This document shows positions 39,345-64,000 of a DNA stretch of 64,000 bases, one piece after another. Under the pieces are notes generated by a model. That model was not told the DNA's origin, did no database searches, and was given only the letters and a program-made list of their open reading frames with translations. Numbering within the stretch: position 1 is the first letter of the stretch; every line of letters starts with the position of its first letter. The DNA is from Macrophomina tecta (Eukaryota > Ascomycota > Dothideomycetes > Botryosphaeriales > Botryosphaeriaceae), in the NCBI GenBank assembly GCA_024180945.1, contig JAKSGN010000007.1:4774001-4838000 (forward strand). The letters run 5' to 3'. Both the position numbers and the translations under genes were made by a program.

Positions 39345-40444
39345 TTAGTAGGCCGTCAATAGCCTTGTTTGTTGGTACTCGAGGGCAGTAATATCTTCTT
39401 CCTCTGCCTCCATCCCAACGACGCTGTCTGCCCTCTTCTTGAACGGCGGTAGTACGCCTACTTTCGCGTGTCGAGCAGCTTTACAAAAATACGCCATTGT
39501 GAACCTCTCGGGCACCTGCCCCTCCGTTCCCGCTGGTTTCGTCACACGGTGCAGCCCCGCTGGCAGTTCACCTCCTGTCCATCGCTGCAATGTCTCCGAC
39601 ACATTGACCAGTACTTCCCCAATCTCACCGGCCTCAACGTCCGCGAAACCGCCTTTAACGCGGTCTTCGAACTGCAGACCGCCCACGCCGCTACCGTCAG
39701 CGAACAGTAAAGTGACGACGCCGAGATCAAAATGCGGCCAGATACGCTCCACCTTTGACGACGCCAGTTCCGCGTCGGAAATGGCTGGGTAGTGGTTGAT
39801 GCGGAACTCGGAGGCATTGGGAGACAGATGCTGCACGAACGTCGTCGGCGGGAGCTCGAGTGCTTCGGCCAGTGCGGTGAGGATGTCGTGTGAAACGGCT
39901 TCGCAGCGGGTATACAAGGCTTCAAGTGAAGAACGAAAGGATGGCGAAGTACAAGGAGAAGGCCAACGGTTGGGAAACAGAGGGTCCCCCGAGGGTCCGA
40001 AGTCGAAATGCTCCTATTCACGGTTAGACGGCTGGCGATACGGAGGCGGATGAAGCATAGCTCACGCGTGCATCCGTGAGGTCGTCGGGCATCGCATATC
40101 CCATGAGCTTGCCGTACAGGGTTGATGTCTTTTCTGCGCCGAGCTTACTCCAGCCACGCTGGGGACTGGGCCCCGGTGGGTTGATGATCTTGCATTTTTC
40201 CTCCAGAGGAAGCTCGAAAAACCGTTTGCCCTGGTCTCACGTAAGGTGGAAGTCGCACGGCGGCAAAAGCCGAGGTACTTACTACTGCGAAGGCATCCTG
40301 GATGGCCTGTGTGGGAATTCCAGTGTTTTTAAGACGCACAAATCCATGTTGCTTCAAGTGGATCAACAGCTCGTGAGCGTGCTGGTTACGCAAAGCAGCT
40401 GAGCTGCTGGAGAAGCGCGAGGCATCAAGGACGGGGAATGACAT
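39345..40444 (-). CDS. isopenicillin-N-synthase-like Fe(II)/2OG oxygenase 1
   Basis: Three exons (40283-40444, 40066-40230, 39345-40013) give 331 residues. The N-terminal DIOX_N-like region holds the usual HGFVRLKNTGI and FFELPLEEK segments. The double-stranded beta-helix core has the iron triad His203, Asp205 (WPHFD) and His264 (LHRV). Arg279 (ERFTMAYF) is placed to bind 2-oxoglutarate. VSETLQRWTGG is also typical. Such enzymes hydroxylate, desaturate or cyclise small molecules in the cytosol. Exon 1 is 162 nt, as in the three related genes of this window. The palindromic ATGCATGT motif lies about 190 nt upstream. Likely a cluster tailoring enzyme. Confidence 0.92.
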
Positions 40445-42957
40445 AGTGGGGTAGGCGACCAGGCAGGAAGACTGAAGAGTGGGGGATGAGACATTCCTGA
40501 ACTTCGGTTTTAAATATGGTAAATTGATCAAAACAGAAGAAAACAGATTACCCGTAGCAGCGACGACGCGAATGGGCAGGCGAAAGCGTGTTTCGGAATA
40601 GAGTTGCTGACATGTGAGCCAAAACCACCTGACATGCATGTTAGCTGAGTAGCCGGAGCGAAGAGAAAGCGGCGAAACACCCAGAACGCATAAACTAAGG
40701 GACTGCGTTGTTGCAAAGACTCATCAGGAACGCCGCGTATCACTCACTAGAAGCTGTTCATCTGCAGCAATTTGCCTCAGCTTGACAGCGGACTAGACAT
40801 CCTCTTTCTCCATAGGTAGAGCAGCCCTCCACCTCGGCATCCCCCGAACTCCGCTTAAGCTTTCCCGTAAATCATGACCATGCGACAATCGACACTGGCT
40901 ACGGTTTCCCTGTAGCATATTCCAAAACCTTATTGCGGGTGAATTTGGCAAGCTACACCGCCATTCAGGAGGTGGATTCATTCTCAAAGCCTTTTACGTA
41001 TACAGGACTTCTTTGCTTCAACAGCGATGATTTCTCCCAGCGCCCTCGTCTTTTCCCTGGCCGGCACCTTCACCATCAGTGCAATTCATCCTCACCGTCT
41101 GCGGAGTGTGCGTAATCCCGATAGGCAGTTTCAATCAATGGTCTTACAGGGGACAGGGGGCTATTTAGCTTTCCGTTCAACCCAGGCGGATAAGGATTTT
41201 TGCAGACAATTGCATAGTGTATCATGTAGTATTAGAGATTAAAGCCTATGAGCGGCTAAAGTTAATTTGCCTTTTATATGACTCCGCGGCGTAATTTCAA
41301 TTCATACTAAACCCGACAATGAAGAAACGGACCAGCGAGGGTACTAGGTGAAAGGTCAGAATCTGGAGAGTGCAACAAGAGGGTTTGGCCGACTAGCGGC
41401 ACGAAAGGAAAATAGGGCTCTCGAAGCGATATGGGTTTGAAGTAAAAACGCAATATGCCTTGATTTACGCTGATAATGCTTAGGCCATCGGTTTTCTTTC
41501 ATATTCAATGCCATCCGGCCTGCGGAGCCAACATTACCCGCCGCAGGAACTCTCATGCTTCCTCTTCGTACCCCAGAAGCAGCCTCTCCCCGGCCAATCG
41601 TTTTGCGAATAGCAATTGCAGGGTAGGACATTATAGTTTTAATCAAACGGGCTGATCGGTCTTCTGCGCACTGCATCTGTATCTTGGGATCCCGTTGCTT
41701 CCTGGAAAGGTAAGATCAAAACCACCGACGACCTGGTACGCATACGTGTGCACCCGCAGCGTATCGGGGATGGGTAAATTGGCGGTCAGAAAAGAGAAAT
41801 TAACAGCTCGCCGGAGATCGCGCAATCAGCCCAGCGCGAACCCGTCTCCTCGTCCTTGTGGAGAGTTCCATGTATGCACGTCAAAGTTCAGATATGCAGG
41901 GTCAGCAGCAAGCCGGGGATGCCGTGCGGGATTCGGGCCGAACCGTGGGGCGAACCCCGACCACTAATCCGAGGCTCGCAATGACGCAACACGTATTCGG
42001 GTAGAGAGTTGATAAACGGGTAGTTTCATGGAATAAGACATTGGAAGGAGTGGGAGCTAGCCTAGGAGTACTAGCATGATTACGGACTGCCCGCCTTTCC
42101 ATCTGCATGTTGGTAGCAGAGTTTAAGAGTGGAAGCCTCAATTGATACCGAGTCTGGTGACTGAGGGAGAAATCGAAAGGAAGAAACAAACTCTGCAAAA
42201 GGAGAGCGCCCCTCTCAATCAATGTAATATTAGTTGCCGTGACCCATGTTGAGGCGCTGCTGGAAGTGCATAAGCCGGCTAAGAGAGACGTATGGGAATA
42301 AGACACTCATGAAAACTCCGTCTTGGTCTGCACGTCTGACCGGCTGGTGTTTAGTAGGTGGAGGCCATGTAAAACACATGGCCTTGCAACTGCACCATCG
42401 TCACCCGGACCTCTGAATATGGCATGATTGTGTCGTGAGAATGATCAGGCTCTTCAAGGAGCCGGTTGGGCTGCAGGACGGACAGCGGTATGGGCAGTGA
42501 AACACTGCGCAGTTTCTGCTTAGCATATAAGAGCACTCAAAAATGTTGAGTGATTTACGGAAAGTTGATCCGGAGCTTGTGGGGGATGAGAGGGCCCTTT
42601 ATCGACGAGCCACGAGTTTCAGAGCACTACGCTGAAGAAGTTCGACGATGGTGTTCGAGCTTCAATCAAGACCGAGCAAACTCGGTTTCTGGTCAAAGAC
42701 TAGAAGCAGGCTTTTGATGTATAATGAATGTCAATATAATAGGGGCTGTGTACGTCCGCTTGTTATCTCTATCTCATGTCCCTCTCTACCAGGCTTTTCC
42801 CAATCCCACAAACGCCAAAGCATTGTCTCCGAAGTTTTAAAGATCCCCCTCTGTCAGCCGAATGCAACTGCCGTCTTGGCCTTCCCTCTGAAGTTTTGCA
42901 ACAGTCTCAGATCTCTGCCAATTATATCCATGGCCGACTGCGTTTTAGGAGGAGGAC
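40445..42957. other. 2.5-kb intergenic region
   Basis: Promoter of oxygenase 1 followed by long non-coding spacer up to the 3' end of the LeuA-like gene. No frame has a domain or an exon chain. It contains the shared motif at 40630-40645. Confidence 0.45.
40606..40645. promoter_or_regulatory. candidate cluster control site upstream of oxygenase 1
   Basis: GCTGACATGT at 40606 is followed by TGACATGCATGTTA at 40630-40643, one base away from the perfect palindrome TGACATGCATGTCA. Its core ATGCATGT recurs upstream of three other cluster genes. The role is inferred from recurrence only. Confidence 0.45.
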
Positions 42958-44823
42958 TTACACAAGCCTGGCCATGATGTTAGCAATTTTGGGGGGGTAA
43001 TGGGGTGGACGGAGGCAGGCACTCACCAAAGCAGCAGACAAACATGCCAACAGACACCTTCGATCCTCATCCTCGGTTGCATTGGCACTCCAAGTGGATT
43101 CTTCGTGTCCCTGGTCGACGCTGCCACGGCACTCGACAATGCTAATACCCTGCAGTGCGCCACAGTCGGTCACAAGGGTGCGCTCTTGAACCGCGAATGT
43201 TAGACCGTAAATGCCGGCTTTGACGAGAGCATCGGAGACGGCCGCGGTGACGGTGTCTCCTCGGCCATGCAGACGGCAGAGACTTCCGTCGAAGAACACG
43301 GCAGCATCGACGGTGATGGACGTCCCCGCTACTCCGCAGTGAGCATCGCTGATGCGCGGGTCCTTGGACAGTGCGTAGTAAGTCTGGAAGAAGGCCGTAG
43401 TTATCTCGGCGGGTGAGAGAGTGCGGGCCTGGGCGTCCGAGAGGGCCTTGATGACTTTGGAGAAGGCAATCTGCATGCCACGCGGGATGTCGAGGCGGAT
43501 GTGGCGGCTGAGGGTCCAGGCCACGCCGCCTTTCCCGCTCTGGGAGTTGACTTGGATGAGTGACTCGTAGGAGGAGCCGATGTCGCGGGGGTCGATTGCG
43601 AGGTAAGGGACTTGCCACCGGGCGGAACGGTTGGTGCCGGCTACGATGCGGGCAAAGCCCTTGTTGATGGCATCTTGGTGGGATCCGGAATAGGCTGTGA
43701 ATACCGCATCTCCGCTGTATGGCATGCGCTCGGGCACGCGGCAACGAGTGCACTCCTCGTAGATGGCCCGAATGGAGCGCAGGTCGGACAGGTCTAGGTC
43801 TGGACTTATCCCTTGACTGTACATGTTGAGGGCCAGGGTGACTAGGTCAACATTGCCAGTGCGCTCTCCGTTGCCAAACAAGCAGCCCTCGACGCGCGTA
43901 GCCCCTGCCAGGAGGCCTAGCTCGGATGCCGCAACCGCACACCCTCGGTCGTTGTGGGGGTGTAGAGAAACGACGACTGTGTCAGGCGCCATCTTCAAAG
44001 AGCGGCAGAACAGCTCCACCTGGTCCGCAAACACATTTGGCGATGCAGTCTCGACAGTGGCTGGCAAGTTCAGCACCATCGGCTCGTCGGCCGTGGGCCC
44101 CCATGCGTGACAGACCGCTTCGCTGAGGCGCACGCTGAAGTCAACGTCTGTATCGGAGAATGCCTCGGGGCTGAAAACAAGATTCCACCGAGTACCTGCT
44201 TGAGTGGGGTCATCCTTGGTGATGGAGCGGGCGTATGTCACGCAATCGACGGCAGTGGCCACCACTTGGTCGCGAGAGAGACCAAACACCGTATCCAGGA
44301 AGTTGTCGCTAGCTCCCATGTAGAGGCTGATAATTGCCTTCTTGGCTCCGGTGACACTGTCTACCGTCCGCCGGATATGCTCCTTGCGGCACGGCGAGAG
44401 CACCTGCAGCCACACATCATCCGGCGTAGCGCCTGGCGTCTCGACCAGCCGCCGGGTGAAGTTAAACTCTGTGTCGGACGCGCTAGGAAATGACACGTCG
44501 ATTTCCTTGAATCCGATGCCGACCAGCATGTGAAAGTATTTCCACTTCTGCTCCATTGTCTGTTATGCCATTAGCCGTGCCTCTGTCGCCACGCCGGCTC
44601 GGAACTCAATACTCACCATGGGGTATGCCAGAGATTGGTTGCCGTCCCGCAGGTCCGTCGACAGCCAACGTGGCCTCTTCGTGATTGACTTTGATGGCCA
44701 CTGCCTGTCATGGATGTTGATACGCTTCGGGGGGCCATACTTTGCGGAAGGATCCTTGAGCCTGATAGCCCGTCAGCACGTGGGAAGGTTGGGAATATAC
44801 ATTCGGTTGGCGTACATGGGCAT
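42958..44823 (-). CDS. 2-isopropylmalate synthase (LeuA-like) paralogue
   Basis: Three exons (44801-44823, 44617-44761, 42958-44559) give about 589 residues, normal for LeuA. The N-terminus [12 protein letters not shown] forms across a 39-nt intron. The condensing-enzyme motif is [28 protein letters not shown], the metal-binding HPHNDRG and [21 protein letters not shown] follow, then a C-terminal leucine-regulatory domain ([20 protein letters not shown]). LeuA condenses a 2-oxoacid with acetyl-CoA, the first step of leucine synthesis. Homologues in natural-product clusters extend other 2-oxoacids. An open frame upstream (to 44985) could add a basic, mitochondrial-type leader. A further intron near the end could move the stop to about 42854. 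Its position among tailoring genes suggests a pathway-specific copy. Confidence 0.9.
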
Positions 44824-45619: not shown

Positions 45620-46930
45620 ATGCCTCTTCCTGTTATTGACGCACATGCCCTTCATAGCGGCACAGCTGAAGAGCTGGCAGCCTTCGACCGCGAACTTTTC
45701 TCCGCTTTCGTCCGCGACGGCGCAGTCAAGCTCAAAAACACCGCCATTTCCGATGATCAAATCGAGCGCACATTCCAGACGGTATGTGAAGACACACCTC
45801 TATTCGACAAGCGCCTTGTGGTTAATGGTCCATCCGTTTGTAGTGCAAAGACTTTTTCCGTCTTCCCGCTCATGTGAAGAACTTGGTTGCCAACGACCCG
45901 ACCCAAGCCCAGCAGCGAGGGTACAGCGTTGCTGGAGAGGAGAAGACGTGGTTCCTCGAGAGCGCCAAAGCTGGTGGTCCCGCTCCCAAACATGGCGATG
46001 CAAGGGTGAGTCCAGCACTTCAAGTCCAAGCATCACAAAGGGAAGCACATGTAGTAGGCAGCCTGAAAGTGACTCTATGGGCTTGTTCATTTGGGACTTC
46101 GTTATATCACTGTCCGGGCATGAACAGCTCAGCTCTTACAAAAGATGAGGAATCACCGAGGGGTTGTCACAAAGACCTCCGACAACTTTCGCTTTCCTTC
46201 TCCTACAACCTCACCACTTGACGTAACATGACTGACAGGGCAATAGGAGAGTATCGATATCGGCGCTGTGATAGACACGCAGTTCCCGAACAAGTGGCTG
46301 CCCGAACACGTCCTCCCCCAACACCGCGCCATCATGGAAGCGTTTTTCAGCTCGTGCGCCGACCTTTGCACATCCATCCTCACGAGCCTGGCGCGCGCCC
46401 GCCAGCTGCCGCGCGCCGACGCCTTTGCGGCCCGGTGCTCACACGCGGCGAGCACAGCGCGCAGCAACCACTATCCGGCCGTCGAGGGCGCGCTGTTGGA
46501 GGCGGGCGACGTGGGGCGGGCGTGGCCGCACCGGGACTTCGGCATCATCACGCTCGTGTTCCCCGGCACCGTGGGCGGGCTGGAGTACGAGAACCGAGAG
46601 AAGGCCGGGAGCGGCGGCGTGTCATTCGAGCCGGTGGGCTTCACGTCGCCGGCCGACATCGTAGTGCAGGCGGCCGAGACGCTGCAGCGGTGGACTAATG
46701 ACGAGGTGCGGGCCTGCCTGCACCGCGTTGCCCGCCCCGACGTGCAGGAGATGGGTGAGGATGGCTTGGCGCCTGAGCGGACGAGCTTGGTGTTCTTCTG
46801 CAAGGCGGACCGGGACGTGTCGGTGGGTCCGATGCCTGAGTTTGTGCGCGGGGGCGAGGAGCCGGTGTACGAGGAGATGACAGCGTTGGAGTATCAGGGT
46901 CAGCGCAACAAGGCCCACTACCCCGGGTAA
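45620..46930 (+). CDS. isopenicillin-N-synthase-like Fe(II)/2OG oxygenase 2
   Basis: Three exons (45620-45781, 45844-46005, 46247-46930) give 335 residues. The family fold is shown by DGAVKLKNTAIS, KDFFRLPAHVK and GYSVAGEEKTW in the N-terminal half. The iron ligands are His203, Asp205 (WPHRD) and His267 (CLHRVARP), and Arg286 is the likely 2-oxoglutarate ligand (PERTSLVFF). Exon 1 is 162 nt. The second intron is 241 nt, about four times the usual length here, and aligns with the conserved intron before the ESIDIG segment. The sequence is Ala/Arg-rich compared with its relatives. Likely a tailoring hydroxylase of the NRPS product or of a precursor amino acid. Confidence 0.9.
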
Positions 46931-47023
46931 GGGTGAGGCAACGTCTACCCCGGTAGGCACATGTGACGAGCGGGGTAAAAGCCGCGTAGGTCATTTCCGT
47001 AGGTAGGCTCGAAGATTGAGTTT

Positions 47024-47035
47024 ATGCATGTCAGC
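47024..47035. promoter_or_regulatory. candidate cluster control site upstream of P450-3
   Basis: ATGCATGTCAGC lies about 135 nt before the P450-3 start. It has the core and right half of the motif found upstream of oxygenases 1, 3 and 4. Confidence 0.45.
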
Positions 47036-47170
47036 GGAACAGTTAGAGGTGGAATTCAAAAAGCGCTGAGGGAGTCAGGGTCAAAGGGGCACGGCGCTGG
47101 AGCACGCCTCTCCGCTCATCATTCTCCCTTCCCTTCTGCTCACATTGACGACACACTCGCTCTCCTTGTC

Positions 47171-49271: not shown

Positions 49272-50268
49272 ATGCAACAGCCAGCTCAAGTAATGGTGGC
49301 GTCAGAGGAATGCAGTATGTGGGGGATGCAGTCGGCAGCGCAGCGTCGAAGATTGCAGAACCGTCTTGCGCAGAGAAATCACCGTGAGTGCTCAGCTGGG
49401 GGCATGTGACGGGGTGCGGGTGCTAATGGCGTGGGCAGGGAAGCGGATGCGAGAGCAGCAGCAGCAGCAGCAGCAGCAACAGCCACAGGAGCAGCAACAG
49501 CAGATGCCGCGACAAGAACAGGAGCAAGACCTGCACGAGGGCCCGCCGCTAGAGACGGAGCAGCAGGGGAATGGGGAGCGTCCGAACCAGGGCGAAGAGA
49601 GCGGCGGCCACGAGGCACTGGCGGAAGCAGAGCAGCTGTGCTTCGACGACTTCATCGACCTGATGCCGGAGAGCGGTGGAAGCGGGAGCGATCTGTGGTC
49701 AGCGTGCGGGACGGAAACGGGGCCGGGAGCGGGAGCAGAAACAGGCTCGCGCGCCGGCCCGCTGGAGGCGCAGAGCGGTGCTGGCGCCGGCTGGGCGGCG
49801 TCAACTGTTGCTGCGCCTGTTGTTGTTGCTGCTGCTGCTCCAGGCCTGCTGCCCTCGCCCTCGCCCTCGCCCTCGCACTCGCACTCGGCCTCGTCCTGGG
49901 GTTGCTCGCGGGCGGCGCCGCCAGCGCAGCTGCCGTTCCGAGCGCTGCAGACACAGGCGCAGGCGCGAGCAGGCACGGCCAGCCGGTGGACGACGGCGCT
50001 GCACATTGCGACGCGGTGCGGGCACGACCGGTTGGCGCGCGTGCTGCTCGAACACGGGGCGGCGGCCAACCAGCGCGACAGCAGCGGGCAGACGGCGCTC
50101 CACGTTGCGGCAAGTCACGGCCACGAGCGGCTGGCGCGCGTGCTGCTGGAGCACGGCGCCGAGGTCGATGCTGTCGACGGTGACGGCTGGACGCCGCTGC
50201 ACCGAGCGGCCGAATCGGGCGACGACTCGACTGCGCGGCTGCTGCTGGTGCGCGACATGGGCCTGTAG
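49272..50268 (+). CDS. bANK transcription factor (bZIP-type basic region plus ankyrin repeats)
   Basis: Two exons (49272-49383 and 49439-50268) give 313 residues. The first exon ends inside a bZIP-type basic region that the splice completes: QRRRLQNRLAQRNH joined to RKRMRE, at about residues 24-44. No leucine zipper follows. Instead there is a Gln-rich tract (CAG repeats), an acidic segment (CFDDFIDLMPE) that could activate transcription, a Ser/Pro/Ala-rich linker and three ankyrin repeats from about residue 221. This arrangement is the bANK type, known from TOXE of the HC-toxin cluster and Aps2 of the apicidin cluster, both pathway-specific activators of NRPS genes. The splice restores the basic motif exactly, which supports the start and intron. 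It is the likely regulator of this cluster. Confidence 0.9.
49456..49503 (+). repeat. CAG-rich microsatellite encoding poly-Gln
   Basis: A CAG/CAA-rich tract directly follows the basic region of the bANK gene and encodes two Gln runs. Its length may vary between strains. Confidence 0.75.
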
Positions 50269-50629
50269 CACGCGCAGGTGCGATGGACTGAGACGGGCGA
50301 GCGAGGACGAAGAAGCGGGGGCGTTGGCGAGCGTGTTGGTGTTGGTCTGTGTTGTTTTGTCTTTTGCTGTAACTTCTGGGGCGGCAAAAAGGGAAAGGCG
50401 TCGCATATTGTTTCTCCACTACTCCCAATCTGGCTAGCGCGCGACAATCGACTCGTCTGATCCACTCCACCATCGCTCATCCACTCTCTCACCCTCTCTG
50501 CCACCTCCTTACTCCTGCTTTGCGTCCTCTCCAAATGCCACCCGCTTGCTCTGCCGCCTCCGCACGTCAATCCAACGGCTGCTTTCCGTCGCCGCCCACC
50601 CCGTTCCGTGCCTTTCTTCACCGTATCCC
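50269..50629. other. intergenic, convergent bANK and oxygenase 3 3' ends
   Basis: A 361-nt spacer between stop codons, with no supported feature. Confidence 0.4.
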
Positions 50630-51779: not shown

Positions 51780-51871
51780 GATTGTAGCAATGCAGTCTGC
51801 CAATGCGCCCCGTGATGGAATTGAGCTGCTCTTATACTGTCGAGCGTGCTGCGCCGGGGCCAGAAGCTCGC

Positions 51872-51887
51872 TGACATGCATGTCCGC
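51872..51887. promoter_or_regulatory. candidate cluster control site upstream of oxygenase 3
   Basis: TGACATGCATGTCC at 51872-51885 differs by one base from the palindrome TGACATGCATGTCA. It lies 93 nt before the oxygenase 3 start codon. Confidence 0.5.
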
Positions 51888-52604: not shown

Positions 52605-52616
52605 ATGCATGTCAGC
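52605..52616. promoter_or_regulatory. candidate cluster control site upstream of oxygenase 4
   Basis: ATGCATGTCAGC, preceded by another GC, lies about 70 nt before the start codon of oxygenase 4. It is identical over 12 bases to the site upstream of P450-3. Confidence 0.5.
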
Positions 52617-52684
52617 ACCCCTGACTCCGACAGTTTAAGTATCCGCTCACTGCCGGGAGGCACACCAGATCATCAGAGAGCGCA

Positions 52685-53830
52685 ATGGAACTGCCTTCGC
52701 TGGACTTTTTGGATTTCTCAACCGGCAACACCGATAAGAGGGACAATTTCTCCCAGAAACTGGCTCAGCAGCTTCAGACCTGCGGTTTTGCAGTCGTCCA
52801 TAACCATGGCGTAGACAAAGAGCTCCTCGATGAAGCTTTCCAATGGGTCCATCCTTCCTGAGTCATAGCTGATCTCTCGCAGCATCCCGCTTACGAGTCA
52901 ATCAGAGCCGCCGCTTTTTCGATCTACCTATGCGAGTCAAATTGAAATCCCTCCATCCCGCAGAGTCAAATCCGAACCGCGGGTACAGCTTCATCGGTCA
53001 AGGTAACACAATCAGGCCACCCCCTAGCGCAACCAGTAACGCAGGTTAACATATATCCAATAAAAAGAAAACCTTGCCGTCCTGACCCGTGCGGACCGGC
53101 GTGCCGAAAGGTGCGGTGAGCTGAAGGTATGCATGCAAGCTCGAACAAGGATCAGACTTCATGACACTTAGCATGCCTTCAGGAATCGTGGGATCAGGTC
53201 AACTCCAACAATCAATCTCACCCAAATCTTTGGGAGGCTGCAGAGGAGCTCCCCGGCTTCCGTGAATTCATGGAATCCTTTTTCCACACCCTGCACGACG
53301 CTGAGCTGCGACTACTCGATGCCATTGCTGCGGGACTGAACCTTCCCGCCGACATTTTTGCGCCGCTTCATACTGACGGCGTTGATGAGTTTCGGCTATT
53401 GCACTACCCGGCAGTAACGGCCGATGACATGGCGGCCAACACACGTACCTCAGAACACACCGATTTGGGAACCATCACCCTGCTGTTTCAAGACAGCACA
53501 GGTGGCCTCGAAGTCGAGGATCAGAGCACTAGTGGTGTATTCCACCCCATTTGCGCAGCCAGTCCGGCCATGATAATCAATGTGGGCGATTCACTCCAAC
53601 GTTGGACCAATGGCCTCCTCAAGTCGGCTTATCATCGCGTCACTGTGCCAAAGTCTGCTGCAAACGATGCTGTCATCCCGGCAAGGTACTCTATTGCCTT
53701 CTTCGCCAAACCGAACAGCGGAGTGCTCCTCCAACCTTTTCCACAATTTGTCAGTGAGGAGCATCCGAGTAAATACGAAAAACTGACGGTGGACGAGTAT
53801 CATCATCAGAAGCGCGCTCAGGTCTACTGA
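52685..53830 (+). CDS. isopenicillin-N-synthase-like Fe(II)/2OG oxygenase 4
   Basis: Four exons (52685-52846, 52906-53002, 53068-53126, 53183-53830) give 321 residues. CGFAVVHNHGVD, RRFFDLPMRVK and NPNRGYSFIGQEN mark the N-terminal half. His198, Asp200 (SEHTDLGTITLLFQD) and His257 (YHRVTVP) bind iron, and Arg274 (RYSIAFF) should bind 2-oxoglutarate. Exon 1 is again 162 nt. The donor of intron 1 is GTCCAT, unusual but at the conserved position. Core sequence and the extra intron are closest to oxygenase 3, which faces it across a shared promoter region, so the pair probably arose by inverted duplication. Likely a hydroxylase of the same pathway. Confidence 0.9.
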
Positions 53831-54529
53831 ACGCTTCTGATTATTCTCCTCCCATTTCTGTCGACTAGATCCAAAATAGAATGCTACAGGCCCATCTGCA
53901 GGCGTCAATCCCTCATTTTCACACTGTGATATACCAGACGACAGAGCGCTATCGTTCATTCGTTGTATTCACTTCTACTGTCGCACCGGGCATGAACGGC
54001 CTTGCAAGAGCAGACCTTTACTCATTACATGCTACGGTGAATTCAGTCCTCGACAGGTGCAAGTAACTACAGGATTTTATAGTTCTGCGAGCTATGCCAT
54101 GGGCAGCCCATGTTTCCGGCGCCAGGCCATGTCCGTCGAACAGGTCCGCCCTTTTTTTTCTTTTTTTTTTTTTTTTTTTCGGTCTTCTTGTTCGACAAGT
54201 TGACAAGATATGTAATGTCTTCCGTCCCTAAGCTGACCCGCAGTGCCCAGTCGCTGACGTGCAGCATCCCGAGCTGTGACCAAGCGCGAAGATTTAGTCT
54301 AAAGCTTATTCTGACAACTTTTGGGAGAGAACAGTAGATGTCTGGCCACCACCACTGTGTCCGTATTATGATGCTTACTTTTAATATTTGCCTGCGTTGA
54401 TCCCTATTCCTTGAGGGCAAAGGATGTAGGAAGATCTTTTTTGTCTTGATTTCTGGACTTTTTTTCCCCCTCTCATTCGTGTCCCTATTGATTAATCACA
54501 AAAGAAACGGGACGAAGAATTGCGCCAAG
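53831..54529. other. intergenic with T/C homopolymer tract
   Basis: A 700-nt spacer between oxygenase 4 and the fifth oxygenase gene, both on the plus strand. A T-run interrupted once by C lies at 54152-54179. No gene is supported. Confidence 0.4.
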
Positions 54530-55626
54530 ATGATATCTACGACAACCCAGACCATCAGTAGGCTGCCTTTTTCGCCACAACAACAGCCACAGCAGTGCAG
54601 TGAGGTTGGCGTTCACCCTCATGGCAAACTACCCACTCACCCAGCGGCTTCCTGGGAGACAGACAAGCCTGTGCCATTGACCCGCCAGTCCTTGCTGGAC
54701 CTTTTGGCTGGCAAGATACCATTAATCAAAGTTCCCGGGTTCGCTACCCGGGATGAATGTACCCAGCTTGTCACGGCCCTTTTGCCTAAACTGAGGCCTT
54801 ATGAGCACGCCACTGGCCCTGCTGTGAACAAGGTTGGGCTCGCGCAATTCGAGTTCCAGGCGCAATCAGAGGAGGACTACGAGAAACGAGATGGAAGTGG
54901 TGAGTCTGCCATTCTAGATCGCTCCCGCTGCCCTTTTTACGTATTCGGCGTCTGCATATACGAACACCACCGAATGCTAATGATACGAAAACAGAGAAAC
55001 AGCGGTATTTCGACGCAGCCGCCGAGCTCCGCAGCCTCCACGCCGACCTCGCCGCCTCATCCGGCGGCACCAACCTCTGGGCCCGCATCATCGCCGCCAT
55101 CTCAGGCCTCGTCCAGCCCGATTGGGACGCCGGCCTCGCCGCCGAACCCTCCAGCCACCAACAGAGCCAGCAGCAGCAGCAGTACTTCTCGGGCATCTTC
55201 CGCGAGATCAACAATGGCACGCCCATCCACTGCGACTGGTGCCCCTACGACTGCAACACCGAGGACTGGATTCTGTCCCGCATCACCAGCCAGGCCGTCT
55301 TCAACCTGTACCTCACCCCCGTGCGCGGCGGCGCCACCACCCTGTACGACGTGCAGTGGACGCCCGACGCGCTGCGGTTCAGGGACCGCGCGAGCTACGG
55401 ATACGACAGGAAGCTGGTCGAGGGCAAGAGGAGCTGCCGCTTCGAGCCCGAGGTGGGGGACTTGTACATCTTCAACTCGCGGAACATGCACGAGGTGAAG
55501 GAGCTGGAGCCGTGCGCTGGGTCCGCAGGGCTTGGCGATCTGGGTAGAATTGCATTGGCGAGTTTTATGGGCGTGTTGCCGGGCGAGGAGACGGGTGGTA
55601 AGCCCCGGCTCATGTTCTGGTCTTGA
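54530..55626 (+). CDS. Fe(II)/2OG oxygenase of a second subfamily (prolyl-4-hydroxylase-like fold)
   Basis: Two exons (54530-54899 and 54995-55626) give 333 residues. Unlike the four IPNS-like enzymes, the core has the metal motif HCDW with His202 and Asp204, a distal His289 (NMHEVKE) and Arg308 (GRIALASF). The surrounding sequence (FNLYLTPVRGGATTLYD and FEPEVGDLYIFNSRNMHE) is that of the prolyl-4-hydroxylase-like 2OG oxygenases. The N-terminus has a Gln-rich start and LAGKIPLIKVPGFATRDEC. A Gln-rich insert precedes the metal site. The ATG at 54530 is followed by a continuous frame into the conserved part. It is the last gene before the NRPS and convergent with it, so a role on the peptide or on an amino-acid precursor is plausible. 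Confidence 0.88.
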
Positions 55627-56227: not shown

Positions 56228-59200
56228 CTAAGCTGCGTCCATCGAACGTAATTTCTCTAAGATCAGAGCAATCTGCGCTCTTCTTGTTGGCGCGTCCATC
56301 AAATCTTCCACCGCCAGCTCAAGTTGACCATGTGTAGCTCGGTGATACACGTCTTTCAAGTGTGCAGCTGCCAGGACAGCCTCACCCCACAGTTCGTAGA
56401 ATGCGATATCCTCCGGGCCCAGTTGGCTATCTTTGGCATGCGCAGAGGCAGGGAAGACCTCGCTCCACGCTCGTTCGACGATGGCTTGTGCCTTCTCGAA
56501 CATTGCCGGGCCTTCCTCATCCTCTGAAACGCAAACGCCATTGGCAGTTTCAGTAGCTGCGATGGGGACCGGAATAACGGGCATTCCTTCACCACCTCTG
56601 CTCAACACCAGCACCTCTTCAGCTCCCTCCGCCAAAGCCTCACCCAGGCTCTCAACATTCTTGCACAAGAGACCAAGGATCTGCTGCGCGATGGTCTCCC
56701 CCAACGTCTCCTTGCAGAAGTTGATTTCAATGCGCAAAGATCCGGCCTCAGGCACCGGCTCCGACATAATCCACACGTCGGCAACGCCGTGTGCAGGAGC
56801 GAAGCTCTCGAGCTGCCAATCCGGCGCTCCTGGCCCGCTCCGCCCGGTCGCCGCGGGGCTCGCGACCGCTCCGTCGAGCGTGACGGCGAAGTTGTTGTGC
56901 TGGACGATGGAGCTCCAGCGCGCCCACCGCGGCCAGTCCGAACACTTCTCGATGATTTGCCTGAAGCCCAGCCATTCGTGCGGCAGGCCAGCCACGTACT
57001 GGTCGTGCACGCGCCCGACGAGCTCCCGCGCCCGCGTCTGCAGCCCCACGCGGGCCCGGACGGGGAGGATGTTCATGCACGGTCCGACGGCGTCCTGGTG
57101 CAGCTGCGCGTCGCTGCGGCCGACCGTCACGGAGCCGAAGGTGATGTCCGCCTCGTCGCCGTCTGAGATTTGTGCCAGCGTCGCCGCCCATGCTGCTTTG
57201 ACCAGCGAGGCCGCGGTCACGCCGCTACGGCTCAGAGCTGCGGCGTTGGCATGCGCCAATGCGCTCTCGGAAGAGGCCATGAGGTGCTTGTACGAGGGTG
57301 CGGAGCCGCCGGCAACCACCTCCGTGATGCCGGAAGAGTCAAGCAGGAGATTGCGCCAGTATTGCTCGGCGGCGGACGAGTCCCGTTGGCGAAGAATGCG
57401 GGCGTAGTGGGAGAAGGGGGCGCCTGGCGGGCTAGAGGGTTCGTTGTTGTAAGCGGCCTTCAGATCGCGCAGCAATACGGGCAAGCTGATGCCATCATAC
57501 AGAGCATGTGCGATCCGTATGACGAGGCCGCCGGCTTTGGTGACGAAGAAGTGAACGGGAGAGCTGCTCAGGCTGCGTGGTGTTCGCATGTCTCTGTCAA
57601 TAACTGCCCTCTCGTCGCCCTCCCATATCTCCTCCACCAGTCCCAAAGTTGCACCGGTGTCAGCGCGAAGAGCTACTTGCAACAGGGCTTGCTCGTGCGG
57701 TACGAAGACGGTACGCAGGATTTGGTGGCGGCGGACAAGGGCTCGGCATGCCGCGGCCATGCGGTCTGGGGCCAGAGAATATCCCTCCTTGCCCTTGAGC
57801 GTCAAATAGTTGTTGTATCCACGGCTGCGCAGATGGGTGGCGGCCCATGTCCAGGCCTGGTAGTCCGTTGCAGTGGCCACATCCTCGATGTCTCCGTTAT
57901 CAAATCTTTGGCTGACGACCTTTGCAATAGCCTCATGCAAGGGGGCGTCTGGTGACGCGAGCGTCCCGTCCCCGTTTTGCTGCTCATCTGCGCATTCTAG
58001 AGCGTCATCCAAGGAACGAGCCGCCTTTGCCATATCCGCCAATGTTGTGTTGGTGAATATACTAGCGACGGTGAGACGTAGGCCCTCACGTTCACGGGCC
58101 AGGGTTGCCAGCCGCATTGCGGAGATGGAATCGCCGCCCAGTTGGAAGAATCCATCTTCCTTGCCAACGGCATCAGCTGGGAGCTGTAGTACCTCGACCC
58201 ACAGCGCATGCAATATCCGTTCGGCCGGTGTCGTTGGCGGGGCCCGCGGGGTGTGTGCAGCAGATGAAACTGTCAGGCAGCAATGGGCAGCTTGCTGGGC
58301 TGAGAGACCGGCAACAAGTGCGCGGAGACGCTTTCGGTCGGTCTTGCCTGCCAGCGTGAGCGGGATTTGCGTGAGTGGGACAAACATGGTGGGAACCATG
58401 TGAGCTGGGAGCTGCTTCGCGAGGCGGGCTTGAAGGCTGACGAATGCGGTGCGGATGTGTTCTGCCAGGTCAAGCACTCGAGGTTCCTCCTCTTGAGCCG
58501 CCAGTCCGAGGAATGCGGCCAGCAGTTGAGCCCCAGGCCGGCCGGGCGCTGTGATTTGGTCTACTGCTACCGCCTTTATTTCAACGCCAACTGCGCTGGT
58601 TTCCTGGCGGATGAGAGCCTCGATGGGGCCGAGCTCCATACGCTGGCCACGCAGCTTGATCATGGAGTCCTTGCGTCCGACGTAGCAGAGAGAGCCGTCA
58701 GCGTCGTAGCGGACGAGGTCGCCTGTTCTATACAGTCTCTTTCCAGCGGCTTCCGTCCAACCAGCATTCGCGACAAAAGCCTCGGCAGTCTTCTCTGGCT
58801 CGTTCAAGTACCCCTGGGCCAGTGTTTCCGCCTCGACTACAAGTTCACCAACGGCGCCCAGTGGTGCAAGAGCAAGACGATCCTGAGACTTGCCAGACTG
58901 CGGCCTGACAACCCAGCATCTCCCAGAGACAGGCCGGCCGATTCGGCTTGCATGGTCGCTTGGTCGAAGTCCGGCTGCCACGGAAGTGATAACACAATTT
59001 TCTGCGGGTCCGTAGGCATTGATCAAATGCAGCCGATCCGCCCAAGTAGCCAACGTGTCTGGTGCAGCTGCCTCTCCACCAACCACCAAGGTTCGCAACT
59101 GCCGGCAAACTCTCTCGGGGTCCAGGGTACGCGCGAAGGATGGCGTGAAGAGCGCCCAATTGGCGTTGGTCCGTGCCATTGCAGCGGTGATATCGGTGGC

Positions 59201-62200
59201 ACGTTCCTCTGGCGACGGCACACAGACGCAGCCGCCATGGGAAAGGGTGGTGAGCATTTCCATGATGCTGGCATCGAAGACGTAGGACGCAAAGTGGAGG
59301 ACGCGGGCGTCGCGGTTGATGCGCAGGGCTTGGCCGTGGTCGGTGGCTCCGCGGGAAAGCGAGGCATGGGTGGTGACGACGCCCTTGGGCCGGCCGGTGC
59401 TGCCAGAGGTGAATATGACACAGGCTGTGCTGTTTAGCTGCGCCTGCGAGCGAAAATCGCCGCTTGGGGCTGGAATGGAGTCTAAGAACGCAGCCGAGAC
59501 CTCGACAGCGCGCGCTCCCAGAGAAGCACAGAGGGCACCTCTTCCAGGAGAGGCAACAATGACCTTGGCACGTGTTTGGTCAACGACGTCTTGCAGCCAT
59601 GGCCGGGGGTAGCTGGGATCCAATGGGACGAAAGCGCCGCCGGCTTTGAGCACGGCCAGGACAGAGATGATGGCCCAGGCAGACTTGTCGAAGCAGAACG
59701 GCACCAAAGTCTCGTGCGTGACGCCCAGGGCGACCAAATGCAGTGCCAATCGATCCGAGAGCTCGTCCACCTCGAGGTAAGAGAAGTCCACCTCCCAGGA
59801 GCAGATGGCCTGCCGATCGGGTTCCGCGCGCGCCCTGGCCGACATGCGGTCCGAAACGCACATGGAATTCTCTGGGCTGGGCGCCGCCTGGAGCGACTGA
59901 GCAAGGTCGTTCCACAGATGCAGCTGATCCCAGTCCGCAGGCCCAGGAACTGCCAACTCCGCCAGCGGTTGGTTGCAATTCTCAGCCTCGGCCTCCGCCA
60001 GCAGCCTGACGAGATGCACGAATTGCCGTAGCAGCCAGGCCCCGCGATGCGGCGGTATGATGTTGTCGTCCCAGCCAAGCATGACATCGGCGCCGCTGTC
60101 GTCCAGGCTGCATTGGCAGGTCAGTGGGTAGGAGAAGAATCCTGTCTCGTTCTCTGAGTCTTGCCAATGGCCCATGACTTCGCTGTTGGTCGCGTCGCGG
60201 AGCTCCCGTGGCTGCACCACCAGCAGGTTGCCAAAGGCGCACGCAGAGCGCGCTACACCTCCCAGACGGGCCAAATTCTGCAAACCGAAGTGCTCGTGCG
60301 GCAGCGCCTCGAGCCATGCCGTCTGGACGCTGTCGAGGTACTGACCGACGCTCTGCGACTCATCAACATGCACGGCGGCTGGCAGCGCACACATGGTCGG
60401 GCCGACCACGCGCTCAATGCCAGGGAGCGACGAGCTGGACCGGCCAGAAGACACGGTGCCGAATAGAACAGCGCTGCGGCCGTTCGCATCTTCTCCGTCC
60501 GAATGCTGCTGGAGGAGCAGCGCCCATGCCGCCCGGATCAGCGTAGGGGTGGTTATGCCGGACGCCTTCTTCCGACGGATATCTACCTTCTGGCTCTCAA
60601 AGCGCGTGACCCTGGGCCGGTATTCTGGGCCTGGCGGTGGTGGGAAGGTTGTGAGCGCCTGGCCTTCAAACGCCTTTGCCCAGAAGACCCGAGACCGCTC
60701 CGCCGTAGCTTCGACGTCGGAAACAAAGCGTCGAAAAGCTGGACGCGGGGACAAGAGCGGGTGGTTGACGGTGCCGCCGCGGTAGGCGGCCTCGACCTGT
60801 TCGATGACCAGCTTCATCGACCACCCGTCGTACGTGCTGTGATGGGCCGTCCATACAAGCCAACGCTTTCCGCTGCCCGGTTCAACGACCTCGCGCCACC
60901 TGTTCAACGGGGCGCCCAGCTCCGTCTTGATGCGCCTCTCCTGCTCAATCACCTGGGCGAGACTGGCTCCTTCGTCAATCTTCCACTGCGGGGGTTCGTC
61001 CAGCACGACCTGGACGGTGGCGCCGCTGCCCTCCAGCTGCACAATGCGCGTGCGAAGTATGGCATTGTCGGCCACAATCCGCGCCCAGGCGGACCGGAAG
61101 CGCTCAGCATCGAGCCCTGCCGGCAGCTCGAAGACGTTGTGAGACACGTAGGCGCCGTGGCGCTCCAACGAGAGCGACATGAGGCCCTCCTGGAGCGGCG
61201 TGCATGGATACAGGTCTCGGATCTTGTGCGCATCCCACCCCTGAGCGCGCGCGACGACCTCGAACATGAATCGGCGCGTAAAGCCGGAGCTCCGGCGGCG
61301 ATCCATGGTCGTTGTCGATGTCGCCGCGGCCGGGTCTGCTGCTGTGAGCTCGGTAGCGCTCTGTTTGGCGAGCGCAGCAATGTCGGGCGCCTTGAAGAGG
61401 TCTGCAACGGTGAAGGAGAGCCCGTACTCGCGTGCCGTTGCGACAAGCCGCATGCCCTGGATCGAGTCGCCGCCCAGCCGCGCGAACACATCGTCTGCGT
61501 AGACCCGGTCCTCGGAGACTCCCAGCGCTCTCGCCACAAGCATGCACAGTGTCTTCTCGGGAGAAGTTGCGGGTCTGCGGCCGGCTCGTCCATCGAGGCG
61601 AGAGAAGGACGCCAACTGGTCCGGCGTCAGCGCAGCACCAAGCGCACGCAGCTGCTTCCGGTCGATCTTATTAGAAGCCGTACGGGGCATGGCATCAATC
61701 GGGACGATGACGGTCGGGATCATGTACGGCAACAGTCGGCCGGAGAGCGCAGTGGTTATGGCGGACAGGAGGCGCTGGAGCACGTCGGGCGAGGCCTTCC
61801 TCCCATCGAAGCACAGGAAAGCGGCAAGCACAGAGGCCCCGTCGGTCGGAGAAAGCTGTCCGACTGCGCTGTCGTCGTGGAAACCGGCGGCTCGCAGCGC
61901 TTCCAGCATCGCGCATTCGACCTCGGCGACTTCGACGCGCTGTCCGCGCAGCTTGATCTGCGTATCCGCTCTCTCCACGAACTCGACGGTGCCGTCAGAG
62001 GCATAGCGCACGAGGTCGCCCGTGCGAAACATGCGCTGGCTGGTGGCGATGCCGTTTCCCGGAGCCCACCGCGTGTACCTGTCGGATCCAGGCACCAGGA
62101 AGCTCTTCGCCGTGCGTTCTGCGTCGTTCAAGTACCCCCCTGCAGCATTGACAGGCCCCTCGACCACGAGCTGGCCAACCACTCCGACAGGCGCCAGGCG

Positions 62201-64000
62201 CGTGCAGTCTTCCGCATCTGCCACCCAGAGCCGGCAGCCCACCGGAAACCCGAGATTCGGCGGCTCTCGCACGCCCGGGGCGAGGGTGCCGGCGACGCAC
62301 AGCGACGATTCTGCCGGGCCGTATGCGGTTATAAGGCGCGCGCGGTGCGCCCAGCGGCGCAGTTCCGTCTGCTGCAGCATCTCGCCGCCCAGCATGAGCG
62401 TGCGCAGTCCCGGCAGCTCGTCTGGCTCCAGCTGGCGTCCCAGCGATGGCGTGACATGAACGTAGTTGGCTCGCAGACGAGCAAAGGCGCCCGCGAAGTC
62501 TCCCATGCGGTCGGCATCTGAGGGCACACAGACGCAGCCGCCTTGCATGAGCGTGGCCAAGTTGTCGCCTACGCTTGCGTCGAAAGCGTAGGCGGCAAAT
62601 TGGAAGACACGGCTGCCGGGATTCACGTTAAGGCAAGGGCCGAAGGCTTCAAAGCTCGAGGCGAGGCCGGAGTGGTTGTGCAGGATAGCCTTTGGCGTGC
62701 CCGTGCTGCCCGAGGTGAACATGACGCATGCGAAGTCGTCAGGAGTACATGTGTCGTTGGGAGGCTGGCCGGTGGGCAGCCGGTTGACGGTGCTAGGGGA
62801 CAACTGGATGATCCGGTGCACATGCCCCTCGAAAATGTTTGCATGAGCTGGACTGCAGACAACAACCTTCGCCGACACCTGTGCCGCCAGCTCTTGCACC
62901 CGAGACGCCTGGTGCTGCACAGGATCGAGCAGGGCAAAGGCGGCGCCGCTCTTCAGGACCGCCAGCATGGCCACCACTGCCCACATGGATTTCTCAAACG
63001 CAACCGGCACAATCCCCCCAGCAGAAGCGCCCAGCTCTCGAAGCTTCACGGCCACACGTCCGGCATAATCGTTGAGCTGCCTGTAAGTCAAGCTCCCGTC
63101 CCACGCACACACTGCTTCGGCGTCTGGCGCCGCAGCAACCCGCTGGCCGATGATGTCGTGGACGCGCCGTTCGATTACGGGCGGAGGGCAGCGGTTCCAC
63201 TCAGCAATTTCCGCATAGTCCTCTGGGCTCACCAGATCCAGCGCTTGGATCTGGATCGGATGCGTGTCAGCGGCAGAGGCGTGCCTCAACAGCTCGTGCG
63301 CCGTGTGAGCAAACTGGTCAACCACTCTCCGCATCTGCACGTGGTTGAGCAGCCGCGGATCGAAGCTCGCGTTGATCTTCACTCCCCCCCGGCACGGCGC
63401 GCACTCGAACATGAGAGCGTAGTTGTTGAACGTGCCGAGGCCTGCGTCGCGGTCCTTCCGCTCACCCAGCACGCCGCCGCCATCGGCGCGGTGGAGGTCT
63501 TCCTCGCCGGCCCCGGCCTGCACAACAAGCACGTTCTGGAACTTGCAGGCCTCCGCAGCCGCAGGACTGGCCCTGGCAATAGTGGGCAGCCCCACGTGCT
63601 CGTATGGTTGCATGGCGCCTGCCTGTTCCTGGACGCGCTGGAGGAAGCTGGCCGGAGGCTCCGTTCGGTCAACACGCACCCGGAAGGGAACAGTCACGAA
63701 GGTTGGGCCGAGCATCTGCTCAATCCCGGCGATCGGGGCCGTTCTCCCCGTCACTGTGGCCCCGAAGACGACGTCGTTGCGGCCAGTATGAGCCGAGACC
63801 ACCAGCGCCCAGGCAGCGCGGAGCAGGGTTGCCGTGGTGATGGCGGACGGTGCCAGCTCGACGTGGCGCTGAATGAGCGCATCAGCGGTGGGCTCGTGGC
63901 CAGCAGTAGGCAACGCAGGGAAGACGGCGGCATCACAGTCCGAGAGCTCATCCTTCCAGAACTTGACGCCTGCTTCGTCGCGTGCCTGATGCTGGAGGTA
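56228..64000 (-). CDS. non-ribosomal peptide synthetase, C-terminal 2590 residues (5' part outside the window)
   Basis: One uninterrupted frame runs from the stop at 56228 through the right edge of the window. In protein order it shows the second half of a C domain; an A domain (FTSGSTGTPKA near 62700, FRTGDLVRY); a T domain with GGDSI near 61460; a complete C domain with HHSTYDG near 60830; a second A domain (FTSGSTGRPKG near 59400, YRTGDLVRY); a second T domain with GGDSI near 58125; and a terminal C domain with AHALYDGIS near 57500. There is no thioesterase. The terminal C domain has the active-site form of fungal cyclising C domains. The last 100 residues resemble a carrier domain, but the phosphopantetheine Ser position reads WGEA. 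It should build and cyclise a peptide in the cytosol. The number of modules upstream is unknown. Confidence 0.96.
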   Translation of the reverse strand, partial: YLQHQARDEAGVKFWKDELSDCDAAVFPALPTAGHEPTADALIQRHVELAPSAITTATLLRAAWALVVSAHTGRNDVVFGATVTGRTAPIAGIEQMLGPTFVTVPFRVRVDRTEPPASFLQRVQEQAGAMQPYEHVGLPTIARASPAAAEACKFQNVLVVQAGAGEEDLHRADGGGVLGERKDRDAGLGTFNNYALMFECAPCRGGVKINASFDPRLLNHVQMRRVVDQFAHTAHELLRHASAADTHPIQIQALDLVSPEDYAEIAEWNRCPPPVIERRVHDIIGQRVAAAPDAEAVCAWDGSLTYRQLNDYAGRVAVKLRELGASAGGIVPVAFEKSMWAVVAMLAVLKSGAAFALLDPVQHQASRVQELAAQVSAKVVVCSPAHANIFEGHVHRIIQLSPSTVNRLPTGQPPNDTCTPDDFACVMFTSGSTGTPKAILHNHSGLASSFEAFGPCLNVNPGSRVFQFAAYAFDASVGDNLATLMQGGCVCVPSDADRMGDFAGAFARLRANYVHVTPSLGRQLEPDELPGLRTLMLGGEMLQQTELRRWAHRARLITAYGPAESSLCVAGTLAPGVREPPNLGFPVGCRLWVADAEDCTRLAPVGVVGQLVVEGPVNAAGGYLNDAERTAKSFLVPGSDRYTRWAPGNGIATSQRMFRTGDLVRYASDGTVEFVERADTQIKLRGQRVEVAEVECAMLEALRAAGFHDDSAVGQLSPTDGASVLAAFLCFDGRKASPDVLQRLLSAITTALSGRLLPYMIPTVIVPIDAMPRTASNKIDRKQLRALGAALTPDQLASFSRLDGRAGRRPATSPEKTLCMLVARALGVSEDRVYADDVFARLGGDSIQGMRLVATAREYGLSFTVADLFKAPDIAALAKQSATELTAADPAAATSTTTMDRRRSSGFTRRFMFEVVARAQGWDAHKIRDLYPCTPLQEGLMSLSLERHGAYVSHNVFELPAGLDAERFRSAWARIVADNAILRTRIVQLEGSGATVQVVLDEPPQWKIDEGASLAQVIEQERRIKTELGAPLNRWREVVEPGSGKRWLVWTAHHSTYDGWSMKLVIEQVEAAYRGGTVNHPLLSPRPAFRRFVSDVEATAERSRVFWAKAFEGQALTTFPPPPGPEYRPRVTRFESQKVDIRRKKASGITTPTLIRAAWALLLQQHSDGEDANGRSAVLFGTVSSGRSSSSLPGIERVVGPTMCALPAAVHVDESQSVGQYLDSVQTAWLEALPHEHFGLQNLARLGGVARSACAFGNLLVVQPRELRDATNSEVMGHWQDSENETGFFSYPLTCQCSLDDSGADVMLGWDDNIIPPHRGAWLLRQFVHLVRLLAEAEAENCNQPLAELAVPGPADWDQLHLWNDLAQSLQAAPSPENSMCVSDRMSARARAEPDRQAICSWEVDFSYLEVDELSDRLALHLVALGVTHETLVPFCFDKSAWAIISVLAVLKAGGAFVPLDPSYPRPWLQDVVDQTRAKVIVASPGRGALCASLGARAVEVSAAFLDSIPAPSGDFRSQAQLNSTACVIFTSGSTGRPKGVVTTHASLSRGATDHGQALRINRDARVLHFASYVFDASIMEMLTTLSHGGCVCVPSPEERATDITAAMARTNANWALFTPSFARTLDPERVCRQLRTLVVGGEAAAPDTLATWADRLHLINAYGPAENCVITSVAAGLRPSDHASRIGRPVSGRCWVVRPQSGKSQDRLALAPLGAVGELVVEAETLAQGYLNEPEKTAEAFVANAGWTEAAGKRLYRTGDLVRYDADGSLCYVGRKDSMIKLRGQRMELGPIEALIRQETSAVGVEIKAVAVDQITAPGRPGAQLLAAFLGLAAQEEEPRVLDLAEHIRTAFVSLQARLAKQLPAHMVPTMFVPLTQIPLTLAGKTDRKRLRALVAGLSAQQAAHCCLTVSSAAHTPRAPPTTPAERILHALWVEVLQLPADAVGKEDGFFQLGGDSISAMRLATLAREREGLRLTVASIFTNTTLADMAKAARSLDDALECADEQQNGDGTLASPDAPLHEAIAKVVSQRFDNGDIEDVATATDYQAWTWAATHLRSRGYNNYLTLKGKEGYSLAPDRMAAACRALVRRHQILRTVFVPHEQALLQVALRADTGATLGLVEEIWEGDERAVIDRDMRTPRSLSSSPVHFFVTKAGGLVIRIAHALYDGISLPVLLRDLKAAYNNEPSSPPGAPFSHYARILRQRDSSAAEQYWRNLLLDSSGITEVVAGGSAPSYKHLMASSESALAHANAAALSRSGVTAASLVKAAWAATLAQISDGDEADITFGSVTVGRSDAQLHQDAVGPCMNILPVRARVGLQTRARELVGRVHDQYVAGLPHEWLGFRQIIEKCSDWPRWARWSSIVQHNNFAVTLDGAVASPAATGRSGPGAPDWQLESFAPAHGVADVWIMSEPVPEAGSLRIEINFCKETLGETIAQQILGLLCKNVESLGEALAEGAEEVLVLSRGGEGMPVIPVPIAATETANGVCVSEDEEGPAMFEKAQAIVERAWSEVFPASAHAKDSQLGPEDIAFYELWGEAVLAAAHLKDVYHRATHGQLELAVEDLMDAPTRRAQIALILEKLRSMDAA

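Follow-up and report, generated by a model that had tools for sequence, protein, structure and literature searches.

The echinocandin and pneumocandin clusters (Ecd/Hty and Glo) combine a nonribosomal peptide synthetase (NRPS) with several 2-oxoglutarate (2OG)-dependent amino acid hydroxylases, an isopropylmalate synthase (IPMS) homologue, and a cytochrome P450 (PMC7778625), with Ecd and Hty forming one cluster (PMC4977696). The AM-toxin cluster of Alternaria and a Zymoseptoria relative specify a small cyclic NRPS product, with the IPMS homologue AMT7 serving in chain extension (PMC8102738, PMC5561558). HC-toxin and apicidin clusters are characterized by a bANK activator, a cyclic-tetrapeptide NRPS, and a promoter box (PMC4109984), and the Fusarium cluster fg3_54 (fusaoctaxin) has a bANK-like regulator, FGM4, together with a P450 and an NRPS (PMC6389888). 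Here, we analyzed a locus of Macrophomina tecta that shares features with each of these systems. It lies in a 64,000-nucleotide stretch of contig JAKSGN010000007.1 (C7:4774001-4838000; the window), in which an initial annotation had proposed, at 39345-64000, an NRPS cluster with five Fe(II)/2OG oxygenases, a LeuA paralogue, a P450, and a bANK regulator.

The window was analyzed together with the next 60 kb to the right, where coordinates above 64000 continue the window numbering; C3, C7, C29, C31, and C33 are contig labels. Genes were modeled with a small splice-aware predictor that had been trained on local DNA, and the models of the cluster were then hand-corrected from reading frames. Genome-wide searches covered the 54.1-Mb assembly (37 contigs), and homology outside the genome was assessed against solved structures (PDB) only. 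Hand-checked splice models and Pfam located all of the proposed parts at 39345-64000, with E values that exclude chance for the named families, and the domain content supports a single NRPS cluster. As anticipated, its right border is outside the window: the NRPS gene is completed there, and the border was taken as an ABC transporter gene (two ABC_tran matches and one ABC_membrane match in the main frame) that diverges from the NRPS gene and ends at 74898 (C7:4848898). The region from 39.3 to 74.9 kb is probably one biosynthetic cluster. With a probability of roughly 55%, we read it from sequence as a cyclic-tetrapeptide cluster that uses hydroxylated, probably chain-extended amino acids, with elongation completed in trans.

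The NRPS gene (minus strand, 56228-64000 in the window and on to 69879) is complete, with three exons (56228-68755, 68808-69469, and 69531-69879) encoding 4512 aa. Its in-window part matched AMP-binding (7.7e-117) and Condensation (1.4e-87) in Pfam. Motifs indicated four adenylation (A) domains, four thiolation (T) domains, and a terminal condensation (C) domain, arranged as four A-T-C modules with no leading C domain in module 1; the genome-wide Condensation search placed four C domains within the protein. Only one C domain fits between each internal T domain and the next A domain, which leaves no room for an epimerization (E) domain. A degenerate fifth T-like tail was recognized by eye after the terminal C domain. 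The predicted C-domain-terminated NRPS is therefore borne out, and the terminal C domain supports cyclic release as likely. A fungal NRPS with four modules and a terminal C domain most simply yields a cyclic tetrapeptide, and the four modules found here make this the expected size. Judged from this architecture, the product is most likely a small, cyclic, four-residue peptide. Nine of the ten positions of the A-domain codes were read, giving DTSCAGIVW for A1, DQGTVGAVS for A2, DAGHMGALC for A3, and DAMLVGAVI for A4.

No remnants of this NRPS were detected beside the cluster in window positions 1-56000 (tblastn, E 1e-3). The only tblastn matches at 75-124 kb were weak: a separate NRPS at 99-106 kb was 23-30% identical, a fragment at 109.3-110.8 kb was 27-50% identical in short segments, and a single segment at 113 kb was 25% identical. 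These matches therefore do not represent a duplicate of the cluster. The separate NRPS gene (99253-106177) encodes two modules, with two C domains in the genome-wide Condensation search, and belongs to a gene group at 93.9-108.3 kb that includes, as named by eye, a P450, a hAT-like transposase, and an O-methyltransferase. The fragment forms one stretch, is interrupted by a stop codon, and bears a weak resemblance to the tetrapeptide NRPS.

The IPMS (LeuA/HtyA-type) paralogue is encoded on the minus strand at 42958-44823 (584 aa; both the 3' end and the short first exon are uncertain) and matched HMGL-like (2.4e-69) and IPMS_D2 (2.2e-28) in Pfam. Genome-wide, five matches to the IPMS post-catalytic domain were found, and all five candidates were scored. 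The cluster protein reached 630.5 bits with TIGR00970, below the cut-off of 697.4, and the genome's LEU4 reached 836.6; paralogues at C7:457 kb and C31:695 kb, scored with the main exon only, also stayed below the cut-off (599.5 and 480.6). The remaining copy, on C33, is 75% identical to the LEU4-like protein over 504 residues. The feedback domain LeuA_dimer was present in LEU4 (6.4e-21) and undetected at an E value of 0.05 in the main frames of the cluster, C7:457-kb, and C31 paralogues. By both TIGR00970 and LeuA_dimer, the cluster protein is distinct from the housekeeping LEU4, and the proposed LeuA paralogue is accordingly best described as a specialized IPMS paralogue.

The change from IPMS to methylthioalkylmalate (MAM) synthase involves five pocket substitutions, L143I, H167L, S216G, N250G, and P252G (PMC8490860). 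Alignment to Mycobacterium tuberculosis LeuA and among the paralogues gave L, S, S, N, and P at these positions for both the cluster IPMS and the C7:457-kb gene, L, H, S, N, and P for LEU4, and I, M, G, G, and A for the C31 gene. The cluster enzyme is thus changed at one position (His167 to Ser) and the C31 gene at all five. The chain-extended residue suggested earlier may be present in the product, but among the five positions only His167 is altered. The IPMS paralogue is the sole chain-extension enzyme found in the cluster. Since isomerase, dehydrogenase, and transaminase are missing there, its partners must lie elsewhere if it does elongate a chain.

A related IPMS/oxygenase pair is present 4.36 Mb from the cluster. 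In the cluster, the IPMS gene (minus strand) and the oxygenase 2 gene (plus strand, 45620-46930, 335 aa) are head-to-head; at C7:455.5-459.1 kb, a UcsF-like oxygenase gene (minus strand, C7:455.5-456.6 kb) and an IPMS gene (plus strand) have the same arrangement. The IPMS proteins of the two loci are 58% identical and the oxygenases 51%, and each pair grouped with an ultrafast bootstrap (UFBoot) value of 100 in unrooted trees of five IPMS and eight oxygenase sequences. The sister locus (C7:445-459 kb) also encodes a fused isomerase of the aconitase type (Aconitase 1.9e-167) and a class-IV aminotransferase, the model of which is split into two pieces. An MFS transporter was recognized there by eye. 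Except that it lacks the dehydrogenase, the locus is similar to the homotyrosine portion of echinocandin clusters.

Oxygenases 1 to 4 matched DIOX_N (3e-15 to 2e-21) and 2OG-FeII_Oxy (8e-11 to 6e-19) in Pfam. Oxygenase 1 (39345-40444, minus strand, 331 aa, three exons; DIOX_N 1.7e-21, 2OG-FeII_Oxy 3.2e-12) is a UcsF-like Fe(II)/2OG enzyme. The other two are oxygenase 3 (50509-51779, minus strand, ∼355 aa, five exons, C-terminal exon uncertain) and oxygenase 4 (52685-53830, plus strand, 321 aa, four exons, first donor site nonstandard). The best solved relative of oxygenases 1, 2, and 3 was UcsF (PDB 9ktp; 2e-75, 4e-51, and 1.1e-53, respectively, the oxygenase 3 query omitting the uncertain last exon), with 45% identity over 314 aligned residues for oxygenase 1. 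For oxygenase 4, it was thymine dioxygenase (6e-50), and UcsF gave 1e-43. Isopenicillin N synthase (IPNS) chains matched oxygenases 1, 3, and 4 with E values of 8e-4 to 8e-8 and were not among the PDB matches listed for oxygenase 2. The label "IPNS-like" given to these four enzymes hence holds at the superfamily level, but among solved structures they are closer to UcsF (oxygenases 1 to 3) or thymine dioxygenase (oxygenase 4). All four retain HxD, the distal His, and Arg-x-Ser/Thr (HFD...H...RFT in oxygenase 1, HRD...H...RTS in oxygenase 2, and HTD...H...RYS in oxygenases 3 and 4). UcsF itself is a free-amino-acid hydroxylase of another pathway, UCS1025A biosynthesis. Two more relatives in the M. 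tecta genome are located near NRPS genes, one at C3:189 kb, adjoining a 10806-aa NRPS frame, and one at C7:3438 kb, close to the C domains of C7:3429-3432 kb.

The fifth oxygenase (54530-55626, plus strand, 333 aa, P4H/WelO5-like) had been called prolyl 4-hydroxylase (P4H)-like. It is present and carries an HCD...H motif, but its sole Pfam match is borderline and to WelO5 (27.6 bits against a cut-off of 27; E 2.7e-6), and a PDB search gave no significant match (best E values of 0.14-0.18, an oxidoreductase and WelO5). It has HxD and not the HxG of a halogenase. A single-sequence AlphaFold model of its exon 2 had a pLDDT of 34.8 and was not used. A relative at C33:150.7-151.9 kb (29% identity over 231 aligned residues) has as near neighbors the C33 IPMS copy and a gene that, by eye, is homocitrate-synthase-like. 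The P450 gene (47171-48784, plus strand, 497 aa; p450 1.9e-46) encodes ExxR and the heme loop FGKGARAC. The cluster includes several 2OG oxygenases, which may act on amino acids, and hydroxylated residues in the product, as expected at the outset, are likely.

The bANK gene (49272-50268, plus strand, 313 aa) encodes a bZIP-type basic region, QRRRLQNRLAQRNHRK (QNRLAQRNHRK, by eye), joined to the ankyrin exon across a 55-bp intron. Pfam lists ankyrin families only for this protein (Ank_2 3.7e-30); basic region and ankyrin repeats together indicate a genuine bANK protein. A word search of eight cluster promoters yielded overlapping 10-mers in four of them, which were then extended to a 12-mer box, ATGCATGTCAGC, that makes up one half of a palindrome approximating TGACATGCATGTCA. 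Its TGAC half-site fits a bZIP-type basic region. Exact copies of the 12-mer number 24 genome-wide, against 2 for the reversed control, and 4 of them lie in the cluster (47024, 51870, 52605, and 70037). The full palindrome has no exact copy; one-mismatch copies number 16 genome-wide, including 2 in the cluster, at oxygenases 1 and 3. For oxygenase 1, the box at 40606-40645 comprises two elements upstream of the ATG, a near-palindrome, TGACATGCATGTTA, at 184 bp (by hand) and an additional half-site at 162 bp, its best 12-mer having one mismatch. For oxygenase 3, the exact 12-mer is part of a near-palindrome at 51870-51887, 91 bp upstream. The P450 (47024-47035, plus strand, 136 bp upstream of the ATG), oxygenase 4 (52605-52616, plus strand, 69 bp upstream), and NRPS (70037-70048, 158 bp upstream of the ATG) genes also have the box, exact in each case. 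All strong copies consequently fall 69-184 bp upstream of start codons. The Poisson probability of finding 4 of the 24 boxes within 37.3 kb is ∼3e-9, or ∼4e-5 after multiplication by the ∼13000 words tried, and none of 300 shuffled promoter sets shared a 10-mer among four promoters.

The box resembles the Api-box, TGACGTGA (PMC4109984). The Api-box itself was absent from 36-76 kb, and the Tox-box occurred twice in this interval, in an intron of oxygenase 4 and inside the fifth oxygenase gene, with no copy in promoters; the known boxes are not enriched and were rejected as the cluster box. Of the 20 exact boxes outside the cluster, the one whose surroundings were examined, at C29:555665, precedes by 640 bp the ATG of a gene of the aconitase family that, by eye, is probably the housekeeping LEU1 isomerase. 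A hand estimate of chance (20 boxes × 1 kb × ∼15 leucine-pathway genes/54.1 Mb) gave 0.006 for this match, which was noticed post hoc and is at a greater distance from the ATG than the cluster boxes. Box-mediated reach in trans to LEU1 is accordingly treated as a lead only.

In the reading that we favor, the IPMS paralogue would escape leucine feedback and lengthen by one carbon a 2-oxo acid that is larger than 2-oxoisovalerate. The isomerase, dehydrogenase, and transaminase steps would be provided in trans, either by LEU enzymes of primary metabolism or by the isomerase and transaminase encoded next to the sister IPMS at C7:445-459 kb. Oxygenase 2 would act on the extended amino acid and the remaining oxygenases on further free amino acids, in both cases before loading. 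The terminal C domain would close the tetrapeptide ring, and the P450 and the fifth oxygenase would act late. The bANK protein would bind the TGACATGCATGTCA-type candidate box upstream of oxygenases 1, 3, and 4, the P450, and the NRPS.

Several observations weigh against this scheme. The codes of A1 to A4 matched no nameable specificity, and no residues were assigned. Exon-wise genome searches, whose counts are lower bounds, placed none of 19 aconitase (PF00330), 17 isocitrate/isopropylmalate dehydrogenase (PF00180), and 8 class-IV aminotransferase (PF01063) matches at C7:4.774-4.898 Mb. When random flanking segment sets were compared, 27 of 500 shared some 10-mer in at least four of eight segments, so that the sharing test alone is weak. 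The fifth oxygenase has a weak box only (54253-54264, minus strand, two mismatches, 266 bp upstream), and the promoters of IPMS/oxygenase-2, bANK, and the methyltransferase contained no box within two mismatches. A shared box thus gives no support for joint regulation of the IPMS and NRPS genes, the absence of which would, according to the initial annotation, speak against the cluster.

Finally, four of the five pocket residues of the cluster IPMS (L143, S216, N250, and P252) are still leucine-IPMS-like. These residues, together with the undetectable feedback domain and the lack of a dedicated isomerase or dehydrogenase nearby, would also suit an enzyme that only supplies leucine, having lost feedback so that leucine is kept high for UcsF-like hydroxylases; the product would then contain hydroxyleucine or methylproline-type residues and nothing chain-extended. 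We regard this as possible but somewhat unlikely, given that the His167-to-Ser change is common to the paralogue whose locus has its own isomerase and transaminase and that the cluster protein scores below the leucine-IPMS cut-off. The promoter shared by IPMS and oxygenase 2 has no box, and the pair is found elsewhere as a unit, as would be expected if it were a passenger of another pathway, that of the sister locus, and did not feed the NRPS. Such a role appears improbable, however, with box-carrying genes on both flanks (oxygenase 1 and the P450) and with oxygenases 1 to 4 all belonging to one family. Primary-metabolism paralogues inside clusters can also serve as resistance copies, a logic known from other clusters, and the IPMS paralogue might in this way tolerate a product that inhibits leucine biosynthesis; the changed pocket residue and the pairing with an oxygenase at two loci instead point to building-block synthesis and make resistance very improbable.

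It is also conceivable that a portable two-gene cassette, an IPMS paralogue head-to-head with a UcsF-type oxygenase, was dropped into a bANK-controlled tetrapeptide cluster that has no other elongation enzyme and borrows the remainder from elsewhere. The sister cassette is accompanied by an isomerase and a transaminase of its own. Because the cluster box also occurs upstream of the probable LEU1, the pathway regulator may even reach primary leucine biosynthesis. We offer this scenario as an unlikely, speculative one. At the sister locus, two promoters were searched, and neither had a box within two mismatches.

The left flank of the cluster consists of a methyltransferase gene (37630-38760), left of oxygenase 1, and a sugar transporter gene (34.3-36.1 kb), whose region contained no exact box in the 124-kb scan, no scan having been aimed at its promoter. 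Window positions 1-36000 look like ordinary flanking DNA, with an ABC transporter (2.6-6.4 kb), P450s (17.7 and 24.6 kb), a sirtuin (20.5 kb), a GH43 protein (27.7 kb), and an ERG4/ERG24 reductase (29.4-31.2 kb). A second cluster with a bANK gene is present at C31:691-755 kb. It includes a bANK basic region (QNRVAQRNYRK, by eye), P450s, a fatty acid synthase (FAS)-alpha-like gene (by eye), an NRPS with an apparent E domain (by eye), the IPMS that differs at all five MAM-type pocket positions, an isopropylmalate dehydrogenase, an aconitase, and an aminotransferase, and gives the appearance of a cluster of the HC-toxin/apicidin type in which the chain-extension enzymes are complete.

Among the described systems, echinocandin clusters share with the locus an NRPS, an IPMS homologue, and a P450, and the 2OG oxygenases found here may correspond to the amino acid hydroxylases there. 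The analogy to echinocandin clusters drawn initially fails for the module number and for the other elongation enzymes. With its four modules, the NRPS is not a six-module hexapeptide synthetase, no acyl-CoA ligase is among the gene models, aconitase, isopropylmalate dehydrogenase, and transaminase are missing from the cluster, and a bANK regulator is present. AM-toxin clusters have the full set AMT5-AMT8, whereas only the IPMS paralogue is found here; the available parts of PMC8102738 and PMC5561558 mention neither a 2OG oxygenase set nor a bANK protein. With HC-toxin and apicidin, the locus shares a bANK protein and a four-module NRPS ending in a C domain, but it has no E domain and a different box; no FAS genes were recognized by eye among the gene models at 36-76 kb, for which no FAS profile was run. 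The fg3_54 product is a linear octapeptide, and this cluster was rejected as a precedent for bANK plus IPMS (PMC6389888), since its "IPMS," FGM3, has been reidentified as a pyridoxal phosphate (PLP)-dependent lyase (PMC10967133). As far as the cited articles describe them, none of these systems has all of the parts. A search of the open-access literature, with subscription papers, MIBiG, and protein databases outside its scope, found no described cluster that unites a bANK protein with an IPMS and multiple 2OG oxygenases. If our reading is true, bANK control, known from histone deacetylase-inhibiting tetrapeptides, would be joined with echinocandin-style hydroxylation and chain extension, and one locus would hold four related oxygenases that probably act on free amino acids. 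The candidate bANK binding box is directly testable, and the locus would offer a clean case of how a cluster with the first elongation enzyme only obtains the remaining steps. Against the known systems, the overall plan is familiar, but the combination of parts, in which the first chain-lengthening enzyme alone is local, looks like a new variation on it.

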